A stretch of 25,293 bases of DNA from a virus, in IMG/VR virus record IMGVR_UViG_3300045020_000158, positions 64,001 to 89,293 of that record; one strand, given 5' to 3'. Below the pieces are notes generated by a model. That model saw only the letters and a program-made list of their open reading frames with translations. It ran no database searches and had not been told where the DNA came from. The position numbers and the translations under genes were made by a program. Position 1 is the stretch's first letter; every line of letters begins with the position of its first letter. Shown here in pieces: positions 4,115 through 20,638 of the stretch.

Positions 4115-5310
4115 GTGAACTGACCCAGTAGCGTTGTAACGTTGCTCGAATTCGTCGCATACAAATACTTTCCGGCCAAAGACTGGTAGAAAACGCCACC
4201 GTGCAGGCGGAATTGCACGGAGCCATTGGTCCACCAACTGGGGCTTTCGATCGTGCACATTGCTTTGCGTGTGCTGCCGGCATAAGTCGCCGAATCGAGT
4301 ATCTCAATACGTGCCGCTGCGCCGACATTTCCCGAACTCGGACCTGCGAGGTAATACTCACTCTGCACCACATAGCAATTGTTATCAACGCTCCAGTTAG
4401 GATCGGTACCGCTCGTATATTGCACAAATCCTGGTAACGTACAGATCTGATAGCCGTTATAGGCGGAACTGCTGGTCACCAGAATCACATTGTTGCTATA
4501 GGCTCCGATCGTCTGGGCGGTCCCATCCCAGACGCCGGTCCAGAGAATATTACCTGTACCGGCGCCTTGGGCTGCATTGATCTGCACCCATTTGCAGTTG
4601 CAGATTGGAACACCGGTTTTAGGATATGGCGTTGAATTCCAAACCCACTCGGTCGCAGTCCCAACGGGTAGATTGCTGGCCAATCCGGGCGCATTGTTGG
4701 ACAACCATTCCCATTGATTCGAGATGGTTTGATTATCCACCGCATTATAAATATCGGTGTCATTGAATCCACCTCCGCCGGTCTTGTCGCAATACCACCA
4801 AGACAGCTTGACCTGTGGAGTGCCCGAAGTTGAAATCGATGTGTAGTTGCAACCCGATGGAAAATAGACAATCTCGGAAACAAATACCTCGGCCATCTGG
4901 GAAGGTGCCGTCACCACGATGCCGCCCCAGCCGCCTCCAGAGCTCACTGTGCCGATGCGGGAATCATTGGACGTGATCATGCCCTGTCCATATGGAAGTC
5001 CTGAGCCACTCACGCAATATGGATAACCGTTGCCATTCGGGACCCACGTGCCACCGGATACCAAGAAATCCGGTCCATTGGCGACAAGACTACCAGGTGT
5101 CTCATTGGCAAAATTCTTATAGGCGATCAACTGAGGCCCGATTGCACCGAAACTGCTGCCACTGATGGTCATCAGTTGGCCTTCGCCGATTCCTGAAGGT
5201 GCGGACAATGAGAAGCCGGACTGCGGAGTGAACCCGATACCGGAGGCGTAGAGATTGCCGGCAGCTCCTGCGATATGCGCACCCACCATGTAAAGGCTGG
5301 GAACGCTCAA
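4111..5310 (-). CDS. Virion-associated adhesin or polysaccharide-lyase-like protein with shared N-terminal anchor
   Basis: The 399-residue protein starts with TTG (MSVPSLYMVGAHIAGAAG). Its first 20 residues closely match the start of the GH5-like protein at 8768-11206. Residues about 30-55 (GEGQLMTISGSSFGAIGPQL) resemble an IPT/TIG-type Ig fold. The rest looks like a jelly-roll: WGGIVVTAPSQMAEVFVSEIVYFPSG, VKLSWWYCDK, ARIEILDSATYAGST, FRLHGGVF and GKYLYATNSS, as in concanavalin-like lectin or polysaccharide-lyase domains. Aromatic residues (WWYCD, WEWLSNN, WVWNSTPY) would suit sugar binding. No catalytic motif is certain. It ends four bases inside the next gene (GTGA), so the two are probably made together. 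Confidence 0.75.
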   Translation of the reverse strand: MSVPSLYMVGAHIAGAAGNLYASGIGFTPQSGFSLSAPSGIGEGQLMTISGSSFGAIGPQLIAYKNFANETPGSLVANGPDFLVSGGTWVPNGNGYPYCVSGSGLPYGQGMITSNDSRIGTVSSGGGWGGIVVTAPSQMAEVFVSEIVYFPSGCNYTSISTSGTPQVKLSWWYCDKTGGGGFNDTDIYNAVDNQTISNQWEWLSNNAPGLASNLPVGTATEWVWNSTPYPKTGVPICNCKWVQINAAQGAGTGNILWTGVWDGTAQTIGAYSNNVILVTSSSAYNGYQICTLPGFVQYTSGTDPNWSVDNNCYVVQSEYYLAGPSSGNVGAAARIEILDSATYAGSTRKAMCTIESPSWWTNGSVQFRLHGGVFYQSLAGKYLYATNSSNVTTLLGQFT

Positions 5311-17342: not shown

Positions 17343-18122
17343 TCAGTCGGTAACGTGCTTCCAGACTTTGCGTCTGCGGATGTTGGAAACGAGAACGTTG
17401 GAGATTCCATACTTCTGAGCCAGAAGGACTCCTTGCTCAGTGCTTTTACGAATCTCTCTCACGATTTCCTCGGTGATCTTAGTGCCCATTCCTCTTCTGT
17501 GCGGTCCGCCAGGAGAGTTCTTGGCAATATGATCAACCTGAACATGCGCCCATGATTCCCGATTTTTGATGCTCGTTATGGTCGTGGCAGCAACGCCATA
17601 TGACGCGGCGATTTCCGCATAAGGGCGAGGATCAATGAGAATAGCTTTCGCCTGATTCTCAGTAAGTTTCGCTCTATGCGACATTTCGCCGCGCTGCTCT
17701 GTCCTGCGCCGACCTTTTCTCACCATATCATCGTAATTTTCCCGCAACGTGCCCATCCATAAATGGGCTGGATTCACGCATCGTGGATTATCACAAGAAT
17801 GGCAAATGAACATTCCTTTCGGGATTCTAGATTGCGTGTAGAACGCCCAAGAGAATCGGTGAGCCCGGTGATACATTACACCGGCGACCTCGCCTTGAAA
17901 GACGCCGTAATTATCCTTTTCCACGGCGCCTATCCATTCCCAACACTCGCCCACTTCCTTGTACTGCATCTTGAATCGCTGCTCCGCCGATAGACCCCTC
18001 ATTATGTGATTTTTAGTCGCGAACGGGGAGCCATATCGGCGATTGCGGCGCCAATGCTTGTTGCACATTCCCATGCAACGAGCCGGAAGATCACAACCCT
18101 TACACTGGCAGCTTTCCGCCAT
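17343..18122 (-). CDS. Freestanding HNH homing endonuclease downstream of the coat gene
   Basis: I start at ATG 18122 (MAESCQCKGCDLPARCMG) rather than at the GTG at 18209, because homology begins there and the upstream part lies in a hairpin. The 259-residue protein has an N-terminal Cys cluster (C5, C7, C10, C16, C20), then the HNH_3 pattern: C60-WEWIGA, YG, HRAHRFSW, IPKGMFICHSCDNPRCVNPAHLWMGT (H108, C110, C115, H120), then ENYDDMVRKGR. Two helix-turn-helix-like modules follow (YAEIAASYGVAATTI and LLAQKYGISNVLVSNI), the usual DNA-recognition tail. It sits outside coat intron B, after coat exon 3. It probably cuts intronless or HEG-less coat genes in related phages. The frame is intact. Confidence 0.9.
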   Translation of the reverse strand: MAESCQCKGCDLPARCMGMCNKHWRRNRRYGSPFATKNHIMRGLSAEQRFKMQYKEVGECWEWIGAVEKDNYGVFQGEVAGVMYHRAHRFSWAFYTQSRIPKGMFICHSCDNPRCVNPAHLWMGTLRENYDDMVRKGRRRTEQRGEMSHRAKLTENQAKAILIDPRPYAEIAASYGVAATTITSIKNRESWAHVQVDHIAKNSPGGPHRRGMGTKITEEIVREIRKSTEQGVLLAQKYGISNVLVSNIRRRKVWKHVTD

Positions 18123-18123
18123 A

Positions 18124-18190
18124 CCAACACCAATCAGGTAGCTATCTACTCTCGGCCGAGAGAAGCATAGTTTACGCTGATTGGTGTTGG
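18124..18190 (-). promoter_or_regulatory. Long hairpin directly before the HNH start codon
   Basis: Arms of 14 perfectly complementary bases (18124-18137 and 18177-18190) enclose a second perfect 14-base palindrome at 18149-18162 plus further pairing (18142-18145 with 18167-18170). The 3' arm on the mRNA ends one base before the HNH ATG and contains its only SD-like sequence (GGTGTTGG), so folding would hide it. No U-tract follows, so it is not an ordinary terminator. Confidence 0.7.
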
Positions 18191-18215
18191 ATGAGCAACG
18201 ATTTGGCACAGTATA

Positions 18216-18277
18216 TCAGCCGAAGATGCGAATACCAAGTGAACGATAAAGGCTTGCAGGCCCGTAAAGTACATCGC
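18216..18277 (-). CDS. Coat protein exon 3 (C-terminal 19 residues plus split Cys codon)
   Basis: These 62 bases give GC + 19 codons + TGA. Joined to the final T of exon 2 they read C-DVLYGPASLYRSLGIRIFG, the conserved tail of P22-like coat proteins. The exon is too short and lacks a start, so it is invisible to ordinary gene callers. Exon 3 bases 18277-18274 (GCGA) can pair with intron bases 18541-18538 (TTGC) as a P10 helix. Confidence 0.9.
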
Positions 18278-20101
18278 CATTTAATGTTAACCAAACTCAT
18301 GTTTGGTCAGCCTTGCGGCTGCTCTGGATTTCGCCAGAGATCAGACTATATCTTGGTCCTTTCGGACCGCTCCCGTTTCGGCCTCGTGGCCTACTCTCTT
18401 GCGAGATAGTCGTTGAAGGTTTCTGCATCGCTGCAGACTTCCCTGCTGATTGTCCAATCCTAGGGATTGTCACCCTCTCGGGTACCCTAGGCTCTAAGGA
18501 GTTTCCAGCAATTAGAGAGCTTTAAACTCGGCTTAATGCAACTTTAACCGAGTCGGTTCTGAGTCGTTATTGATGGTAAATTGCGTCACCATCCGGATCG
18601 ACATCCCCACATCCTCGTCGTCATAAGCCCGCGCCGCAAACTCCACGCCCCGAGGCAGTGGCAGATCCGCGAAGGCCAACGCAAACGCGTACTTGTGGAA
18701 CACCAACCCCTGCGGACTCGCCGTGCTGGCGTACGCCGTTCCACCATTGACCGTAATAGTCGTACCGGTGCCGGTCGGGGCTGCCGTGCAGTTCTGGAAC
18801 TGGCCGGCGCTGATGATCGCGTCGCCAATCGTGAGCTGCAGGTTGCCCGAGCTGTCACTGGTATACACACCGGTCAGCGGGTTGAACGTACCGTTCGTCA
18901 AACTCGCCGGTCCGTAGTAGATGCCCGTCGTCGCGGCACCGTTCGGGGGAGTGATAAAGCCACCGGGCGGCAGAATCACGAACTGCTTCAGCGTGCGTCC
19001 ATACTGCTGACGGCTTTGTGGGTTCACCGGATAGATTCCGCTGAACTGGATCACATCGCCGACCTTAACCACACCGGTTGAGCCGGTCCAACCGGTCGTC
19101 AGGATCGTGCCGCTGGCCGCCCACCCGCTGGTGAGGAGTGCCGTACCGGTCGGTGTCGCAGACACCGTGGGCGTACCGCCCTGAACACCGGTCGTGAACG
19201 ACATGATGTTCTGATCCTCCCACCAGTCCAATCCGGCGAACTCCTTCGCCACCATGCCGCGCTCGTTGAACTCCGAGATGCGCGCCTGGGGATTGAACAG
19301 GCCCTTGATGGCATCCGTTGCCGCTGACATGCTGATCGGGTCCAGCACGCAGTTTTTCTCGCCTTCGGCCGGGCAGGCCTCGGACGCCAGCACCGCACGT
19401 GCATCGGAGAAAATCTTGTAGCTGGCAGGCTGGATGCCCGCGGTGCCCAAGGAATTCGCCGTGTTGAGCGTGCAGAACTGTGCAGTGTCGGAATCAACGC
19501 GGTTCGCCACGGTCGCGACCTGGGGTTTCAGAATGCGCTGCTTGAACATGTCCATGGACAGCGCCAGGTCCTGCGTCGTGAACTGCACATCGACGTGGAA
19601 CTGGTAGTTGAGCACCACCGGGACGTACTGCTCGAACGTGTCTTCCACGTTCAGAGGCGGACCATACGTACCGATGTAGCGGGGCGGACGCCGGACGTTA
19701 ACTGTGTTCGAGGTGTTCAGTCAGCTCATGCTGACCCGTCTTGCGACTGCTGTAAGTTTCCCTACAGTCCAGATCATATCTTGCCTCTTTCGAGGCCCCA
19801 CCGTTTCGAGCCCGTTGACTCTACTTCCTTTCGGAATGATCGTTGAGCGTTCCGTCTTGCGACGGCTTCGTTGCTGATTACCCAATCCTGACGATTGTCA
19901 CCTTGCGGTACGTCAGGCTCTAAGGGCGTTCCAGGCAGTTAGATGGATTTTGAATCGGCCGATTCAACCGATTTTGGCGCCGGTCTGGGCGAACTCGTTA
20001 CTGTATTGGCGGTCTACACGATTTGCGATAACGAGTTCGTTTTCAAGCACCACTAACGCCTCGTTAGTGATGTATGAAATTGTCAGAAGTTGTTGAACCA
20101 A
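18216..20101 (-). CDS. Major coat protein, P22 gp5-like (HK97 fold), split by two group I introns: join of 20101-19967, 19708-18547, 18277-18216
   Basis: The spliced product is 452 residues, close to the 430 of P22 coat. Exon 1 starts with TTG at 20101, six bases after AGGAG, and encodes MVQQLLTISYITNEALVVLE...DRQYSNEFAQTGAKIG, the classic N-arm of P22-like coats (LLTxxMITxEALRVLxxxL...INRxYDDxFAxxGAKIGD). Exon 2 continues NTVNVRRPPRYIGTYGPPLNVEDT and runs through the core, including FHKYAFALAFADLPLP and MSIRMVTQFTINNDSEPTR. Exon 3 ends CDVLYGPASLYRSLGIRIFG, matching the conserved C-terminus (PTRLDVLYGxxxLYPELAVRIxG). Both junctions restore frame and motif exactly. Unspliced RNA hits TGA right after exon 1 and TAA five codons into intron B. 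The scaffold gene lies upstream, as in P22. Confidence 0.93.
18278..18546 (-). ncRNA. Group I intron B in the coat gene (269 nt, no ORF)
   Basis: P1: exon ACTCGGT (18553-18547) pairs with the guide GCCGAGT (18532-18526), with the U-G wobble at the splice site. P3: GCTCTC (18520-18515) with GGGAGC (18374-18369). P4: TGCTG with CAGCA. P7: GACTAT (18411-18406) with ATAGTC (18349-18344), preceded by AAGAT. Hairpins P7.1/7.2, P8 (GGTCC-GAAA-GGACC), P9, P9.1 and P9.2 are all visible. The last base is G, as required. Core strings AATTGCTGG..TTAGAGCC and GACAATCAGCAG are typical of phage group IA introns. Confidence 0.92.
18547..19708 (-). CDS. Coat protein exon 2 (387 codons plus one base)
   Basis: It begins AAC-ACA-GTT after intron A and ends CGG-T before intron B. 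It encodes the HK97-fold core of the coat protein with a Gly/Thr-rich insertion region around QGGTPTVSATPTGTALLTSG. Read alone it would look like a 371-residue protein starting at the GTG at 19648 and ending LKLH in intron B. That would lack both conserved termini, so the isolated frame misrepresents the protein. Confidence 0.9.
19709..19966 (-). ncRNA. Group I intron A in the coat gene (258 nt, no ORF)
   Basis: P1: exon AATCGGT (19973-19967) pairs with GCCGATT (19959-19953), with the U-G wobble at the splice site. P3: TCCATC (19947-19942) with GGTGGG (19802-19797). P7: GATCAT (19841-19836) with ATGATC (19777-19772). P7.1 (TTCC-GAAA-GGAA), P8 (GCCTC-GAAA-GAGGC), P9 and P9.2 (GTCAGC-ATGA-GCTGAC) are present. 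Core strings TTAGAGCCTGA and GTAATCAGCA match intron B. The first three intron bases are TGA, a stop in the exon frame. An alternative in-frame 3' site after 19718 would add NTS; the site after 19709 fits the family better. Confidence 0.92.
19967..20101 (-). CDS. Coat protein exon 1 (45 codons, TTG start)
   Basis: AGGAG at 20112-20108 stands six bases before TTG 20101. The encoded residues include SYITNEALVVLENELVIANR and NEFAQTGAKIG, the N-arm of the P22 coat family, and stop exactly at the intron A splice site. Confidence 0.88.
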
Positions 20102-20115
20102 GTAAAGCTCCTAAG

Positions 20116-20638
20116 TTAGATGTTAACTAAGTGAGCTGAATGATTTACGTGGCCGTTTAGGATCAAAGAAATCAAAGGACGGCTAACACCAAACCAGTCA
20201 GCTATCTGCTGTTGAGTGCAGCCAGAAGCGCGAAGATCACAGATTCTCTCGCCGTCCGTAGCGTTGAGTTTCTGCCATCTCGTGCCTTGACGCCATGCAT
20301 GGCGTCCCTTAGATACCATATCTCGGGAGTTATCCATTGCCGTACCGAGGAACAAATGGTCAGGATTAATGCAACGAGGAACATCGCATTTGTGTAAAAC
20401 CATTTTGTCAGAGGGAAGATCGCCATTTGCAAGAACCCATGCAACACGATGGGCATATCTCATATATTGCCCCTTGCTGAGTAGGATTTGACCATATCCC
20501 CTATCATTAACCGTTCCATTCCAAATAATGCACCCGTTTTCATTAGGGGGGGCCGTATTTGGTATGAAAGCGCTTAATGCAACGATCTGGAATATCCGAC
20601 CGCTTAAGAATGCGGGCGAATCGATTGCGATTAGTCAC
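20116..20638 (-). CDS. Freestanding HNH homing endonuclease upstream of the coat gene, frameshifted
   Basis: GTG at 20638, eight bases after GGAG, begins MTNRNRFARILKRSDIPDRCIKRFHTKYGPP. The frame then hits TAA right after a run of seven C (20552-20546). Dropping one C continues NENGCIIWNGTVNDRGYGQILL, then MRYAHRVAWVLANGDLP, KMVLHKCDVPRCINPDHLFLGT and NSRDMVSKGRHAW, a complete HNH_3 domain. A C-terminal helix-turn-helix follows (CTQQQIADWFGVSRPLISLI). Length is about 173 residues when joined. The intact-frame remainder from 20463 lacks the CxxW start of the domain. It is more AT-rich than the scaffold and coat genes. The shift may be decay, slippage on the C-run or a sequencing error. Confidence 0.82.

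Follow-up and report, generated by a model that had tools for sequence, protein, structure and literature searches.

Capsid genes with introns have been published for mycobacteriophage LittleE and lactococcal phage Tuc2009 (PMC3706429), MCP genes interrupted by as many as four introns for crAss-like phages (PMC7886860), and genes with three introns for Twort orf142 and the Bastillevirinae (PMC11878797 and its reference 34). Multi-intron capsid genes as such are already known; a P22-like coat gene as the host has not been found reported. We analyzed a stretch of 25,293 nucleotides (the window), corresponding to bases 64001–89293 of an 89,293-base IMG/VR virus record, which is a metagenome contig. 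The phage, described as soil-type, carries its shell protein gene in three pieces. The original prediction placed two group I introns in this P22-like coat gene and suggested that such a double insertion may be undescribed. This holds for P22-type coats, for which we found no earlier report of introns in the searchable literature (subscription papers lie mostly outside it), but not for the kind of arrangement, since introns in capsid genes are published (PMC7886860, PMC3706429).

The MCP gene of the crAss-like Zeta phage OLRF01000054 resembles the window gene in its division into five fragments by four segments, three of them with group I intron domains, and Delta-group crAss-like MCPs also carry group I introns (PMC7886860). 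Unlike the window gene, the OLRF01000054 MCP belongs to another capsid family and phage order, and its introns were found via endonuclease domains, whereas the two window introns contain no ORF and are placed to the base. The capsid intron of LittleE and the tail intron of BAKA likewise split a late virion gene, with exons that end in U and introns that end in G; their splicing was shown by RT-PCR and N-terminal sequencing, and the BAKA intron, at 265 nt, has no endonuclease (PMC3706429). These genes differ from the window gene in having one intron each, and in host and capsid lineage. Two or three introns per gene, with small internal exons, occur in Twort orf142 (tail tube) and in Bastillevirinae DNA polymerase and TerL genes, although the target genes are others (PMC11878797). 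The phiNIT1 rNDPL intron, for which splicing is reported (PMC11878797), is also related to the window in sequence: the ribonucleotide reductase intron of this phage is 69% identical to the downstream window intron, intron C (E=5e-4). Intron C is similarly related to the portal intron of Pseudomonas phage vB_PsyM_KIL1 (NC_030934), with 86% identity over half of C's length. The KIL1 intron too lies in a virion gene of a proteobacterial phage, annotated there as a joined CDS, but it is a single intron, in a portal gene and in another phage lineage.

It has been asked why phage group I introns colonize only DNA and nucleotide metabolism genes (PMC11878797). The coat genes described here contradict such a restriction, their target being an essential late gene whose product each virion needs in hundreds of copies.

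The coat gene and its spliced product

The minus strand of the window encodes, in this order, a P22-like portal protein (24392–22251; P22_portal, 471 bits), a scaffold-like protein (21927–20680; 22.9 bits, slightly under the Pfam cut-off of 25) and a P22-like coat protein (20101–18219). The coat gene is interrupted twice, leaving three exons:

19967..20101, minus strand: coat exon 1, 135 nt, codons 1–45, ends AAA ATC GGT^; hmm 8–41
19709..19966, minus strand: intron B (group I), 258 nt without an ORF; the 5' site follows the U of GGU and the final base is G
18547..19708, minus strand: coat exon 2, 1162 nt, codons 46–432 and the first base of 433; hmm 42–406
18278..18546, minus strand: intron C (group I), 269 nt without an ORF; the 5' site follows the U of CGGU and the final base is G
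18219..18277, minus strand: coat exon 3, 59 nt, completes C433, then DVLYGPASLYRSLGIRIFG

The start codon is TTG at 20101, with AGGAG upstream, and the stop codon TGA (18218–18216) lies next to exon 3. We enumerated candidate junctions and kept those that restore the frame, have U at the exon end and have G at the intron end; the junctions with all three properties are 19967/19708 and 18547/18277. Joining the exons gives a coat protein of 452 aa that matches Pfam P22_CoatProtein (PF11651) with 122.9 bits (E=2e-35); on the unspliced gene the same profile gives three ordered matches (hmm 8–41, 42–292 and 316–406). Profile A1 matches the solved P22 gene 5 protein (E=8.6e-14), and the only cellular relative of the coat found was on one metagenome-assembled contig. 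The junctions and outer coordinates agree with the original prediction, whose range from 18216 adds the 3-nt stop codon, and the junctions restore both the frame and the family motifs that it had named (AKIG/NTVNVRRPPRY and PTR/CDVLYG).

No second coat gene was found elsewhere in the 89-kb record in a search with the P22_CoatProtein profile; an intact copy there is what the original prediction had named as evidence against it. A functional capsid would require splicing of both introns. It is very improbable that the insertions stay unspliced, with the fragments translated separately as a split coat or the gene dead. A GTG start inside exon 2 (19648) would suit separate translation. Against this, exon 3 (about 20 aa) has no in-frame start of its own, and its product matches the C-terminus of intronless relatives, whose coat is one continuous protein; in addition, the insertions covary in their folds as group I RNA (see below). 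The intron B frame stops immediately (GGT TGA), so an unspliced mRNA yields 45 residues. We consider it highly probable that the coat precursor carries two group I ribozymes and is spliced to the 452-aa coat, and that both introns are copies of mobile introns that lack an endonuclease of their own.

Group I identity of introns B and C

That one P22-like coat gene carries two group I introns is borne out by Rfam matches, by covariation and by the spliced 452-aa coat. The covariance search with Rfam Intron_gpI (RF00028) that had been proposed as a check matched both introns. Intron C scored 70 bits (E=4.1e-16), above the gathering threshold of 50; the 30.7 bits of intron B (E=3.5e-5) fall short of that threshold. 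Neither intron contains an endonuclease ORF. The following elements were located:

19954..19959, minus strand: intron B internal guide sequence GCCGAU, pairs with exon AUCGGU (19972–19967), U·G at the splice site
18527..18532, minus strand: intron C internal guide sequence GCCGAG, pairs with exon CUCGGU (18552–18547), U·G at the splice site
19837..19841, minus strand: intron B P7 5' strand GAUCA, pairs with UGAUC (19776–19772)
18407..18411, minus strand: intron C P7 5' strand GACUA, pairs with UAGUC (18348–18344)
18538..18542, minus strand: intron C P10 strand GUUGC, read from the sequence, against 3' exon GCGAU (18277–18273), five pairs including G·U

P1 at both 5' sites comprises six Watson–Crick pairs plus the U·G, and each site follows the U of that pair, as had been predicted together with the final G of both introns. 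A P1 this long was found in 0.23–0.27% of random 41-mers of the window (53/20000 for B, 46/20000 for C). The P7 helices, which contain the guanosine site, covary: intron C has GACUA/UAGUC and intron B has GAUCA/UGAUC, a difference of two compensatory changes. We extended the comparison to ten related introns, namely window introns B and C, introns of two close relatives (L009 and L072) and six from other IMG/VR contigs, and counted the P3–P9 structure. Standard pairs filled 96.9% of the cells in this alignment, with compensatory change in 33 of the 49 pairs. None of 500 shuffles was as good, and only 33–45% of cells were paired when partners were slid by 1–3 columns. P3 and P7 were paired in 100% of cells and P8 in 93%, with compensatory changes in each helix. 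These data show the identity of the introns, and comparison with relatives shows their boundaries. Group I subgroups are distinguished by, among other features, additional helices between P7 and P3 (P7.1/P7.2; PMC3984707), and IA2 accounts for over half of viral group I introns (PMC11835236); we infer that the window introns belong to IA.

One precursor transcript would contain the three exons and the two group I ribozymes. Each guide sequence would pair with the upstream exon end to form P1 with its U·G, the P3–P8 core would fold, and two guanosine-started transesterifications would remove each intron, joining codon 45 to codon 46 and restoring codon 433 to give the 452-aa P22-like coat. Judged from the sequence features, splicing probably happens, and it is likely to be autocatalytic and guanosine-dependent.

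Intron B has an extra C in P4 and an altered J4/5, and inspection of the sequence found no P10 between it and the 3' exon AACACAG; if the 3' site instead lay after ...GACUG, three residues (NTS) would be added. L072 has the GUUGC of the window P10 in its intron C too; its intron B shows an undamaged P4 and a short P10 (UGUU/AACA). Together with the score of 30.7 bits, as against 70 for intron C, these features could mean that intron B is decaying, the genome being defective or B being spliced only with help, and only C fully active. We regard this as unlikely, given that P3, P5, P6, P7, P8 and P9 of intron B lie within an alignment paired at 93–100% per helix with compensatory changes, that the coat frames are otherwise undamaged, and that the record has no spare coat gene. 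We favor the reading in which both introns are spliced.

Intron content and movement among close relatives

We searched IMG/VR with the spliced coat and kept the 80 best-scoring loci. Most of them hold one uninterrupted coat frame, mostly 70–86% identical to the window coat end to end. Introns were found in the window's own clade in 7 of these 80 contigs (five distinct), a frequency that is biased because split genes score lower. L009 and L010, which are identical here and come from two metagenomes, encode a coat 98% identical to that of the window and have one intron, at a further site, A (CAGU^, codon 33), with none at site B or C. L072, from a third metagenome (coat 97% identical), has introns at A, B and C; those at B and C are homologues of the window introns at identical sites, and the 38 nt that separate sites A and B form a micro-exon. 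The intron C of L072 holds an HNH gene (4139–4576), and the contig ends inside this intron. L065 and L076, which are identical, have at site A an intron of 694 nt that contains an HNH gene (L065 4305–4998). Introns of a second lineage, described below, occur in L070 (202 nt, site A) and in L086 (codon 430). A break at codon 62 of L075 was rejected as an intron and is a frameshift.

Presence or absence at sites A, B and C differs among the window, L009 and L072, whose coats are 97–98% identical, and intronless relatives. Sites A and C each have both HEG-bearing introns (with HNH genes in L065 and L072, respectively) and HEG-less ones. The comparison thus shows presence/absence polymorphism, with HNH genes inside homologous introns. 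That neighboring phages use a third site, and that one of them has all three introns together, could not be seen in the original prediction. The variation among sister phages, and the origin of the record as a metagenome contig, could also be taken to indicate an assembly chimera or a sequencing artefact that merged intron-bearing and intronless strains. We consider such an origin extremely improbable: homologous introns that follow the same boundary rules sit at defined sites in L009/L010 (two metagenomes) and L072 (a third), and the junctions are exact to the nucleotide.

If introns B and C are real copies of mobile introns, as we favor, they would home between phages of the group, with cutting supplied by introns of relatives or by the HNH genes that flank the coat:

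20116..20463, minus strand: HNH_3 endonuclease ORF between scaffold and coat, Pfam HNH_3 E=4.3e-15
17343..18209, minus strand: free-standing HNH gene directly 3' of the coat, Pfam HNH_3 E=2e-6

The N-terminal part of the upstream HNH gene (from about 20638) is encoded in a different frame, with the break at a C7 run; this may be a sequencing error, a pseudogene or slippage. The upstream gene is absent from L009, and the downstream gene is present there even though L009 has no intron C. In collaborative homing, a free-standing endonuclease cuts the insertion site of a neighboring ORF-less intron (PMC3984707, PMC2814812). By analogy, we hypothesize that the flanking HNH genes drive homing of the window introns. 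Elsewhere in the window, an ORF at 1716–2549 has a NUMOD3 motif (E=9e-5) and is probably another free-standing homing endonuclease gene. Outside the window, the phage encodes a Ro60-like protein (G000:C1:20298–21950; TROVE E=1.5e-35, Ro60 vWA E=1.9e-44), which one would not expect a P22-like phage to carry.

Window intron B is 90% identical to the L009 site-A intron over a 183-nt core (81.5% over the whole length) and 83% identical to the L072 site-B intron over 225 nt (77.5% over the whole length); a small tree pairs it with the L009 site-A intron (81% bootstrap). Ahead of its guide sequence, which fits site B, intron B keeps UGAAU, complementary to the site-A 3' exon AUUCA. These features are suggestive, not proof, of an origin of intron B by ectopic transfer of a site-A intron, whether by reverse splicing or by recombination between neighboring introns. 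Such a transfer would account for the missing P10 and the low score of intron B. For ectopic transfer by reverse splicing, PMC3984707 cites circumstantial evidence only, the best of it from rDNA.

Fifteen coat sites and a second intron lineage

A scan of IMG/VR with core strings of each lineage gave 37 stretches for that of the window introns and at least 120 (loci L192–L311) for the second (core string TCTCTGATTGACTTGGAA). The coat profile was placed on these stretches and the junctions were then solved, giving seamless coat proteins for L209, L222, L234, L241, L254, L268, L269, L285, L303, L308 and others. The coat gene of L234 has three introns; those of L269, L271, L276, L285 and L311 have two. 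Junction choice was adjusted by hand for the codon-204 intron of L271/L311 and the codon-51 intron of L196/L267/L276. Among the matches listed, and including the window clade, 15 sites were mapped in P22-like coats, after window residues 22, 32, 36, 38, 45, 51, 73, 85, 103, 108, 204, 390, 423, 430 and 432; introns of the two lineages occupy them. U and G served to pick these junctions, so the two letters are not independent evidence there, whereas the gap-free coat junctions are. The sites sit at conserved residues (mean entropy of the residues around them 0.71 vs 1.06 at random positions, P=6.5e-4); conserved insertion positions are usual for group I introns (PMC2814812).

Introns of the second lineage are compact (about 200–270 nt), with P3 directly after P7 and without P7.1/P7.2. 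They too covary, with 92.4% of cells paired and compensatory change in 29 of 44 pairs. The one copy tested, L086, had no match to Rfam RF00028 even at E=10, and blastn found the lineage in just 4 of 50,697 phage records. In MW202674.1 (16569–18084; L089), a compact group I intron follows GTGGAT and divides a single coat gene; in the deposited "complete genome" the same locus is annotated as two P22 coat proteins plus one hypothetical protein. Coats of this sort are broken up by ordinary gene callers, and annotations report truncated or double coat genes, as at this locus. Downstream exons of the second lineage match inner parts of phrog_1357, phrog_1328, phrog_9953 and phrog_14242 (major-head) and of a portal. 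Profile matches that start internally in this way suggest that the lineage, which is abundant in IMG/VR, often interrupts major-head and portal genes too, and possibly tape-measure genes. No further intron of either lineage was found in the window's record.

The pattern across relatives is more interesting than the window alone. With 15 mapped sites among the matches listed, up to three introns per gene, and sister phages that differ in content, these coat genes offer a natural system in which to study homing, ectopic transfer through reverse splicing, and what splicing costs the phage in capsid supply. We regard it as quite possible, though short of probable, that group I introns favor capsid genes as a habitat and invade them again and again, with two lineages, one of them missed by Rfam, hopping between conserved coat sites and unrelated capsid families; window intron B would then be an ectopically moved site-A intron, hence the site-A-like P10 strand UGAAU beside a site-B guide.

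Freshwater-type coats with the codon-51 intron have an extra insert of 32–34 nt between codons FAV and GGKIGNTVNVR. It occurs in L196 (reverse complement, around offset 1080), L267 (1128–1172, plus strand) and L276 (reverse complement, around offset 8329), and also in L202, L208, L229 and L401–L405, with three distinct haplotypes only. Programmed ribosome hopping over the insert in L196/L267/L276 was rejected, there being no matching landing codon in the right frame. The insert begins after U, has G as its last base, places GCC opposite GGU and contains a small hairpin, and its strand CUCCU/CACCU pairs with the 3' exon AGGAG/AGGUG in a compensatory manner. It looks like a group I intron minus its catalytic core, and is perhaps removed by the ribozyme of the neighboring intron.
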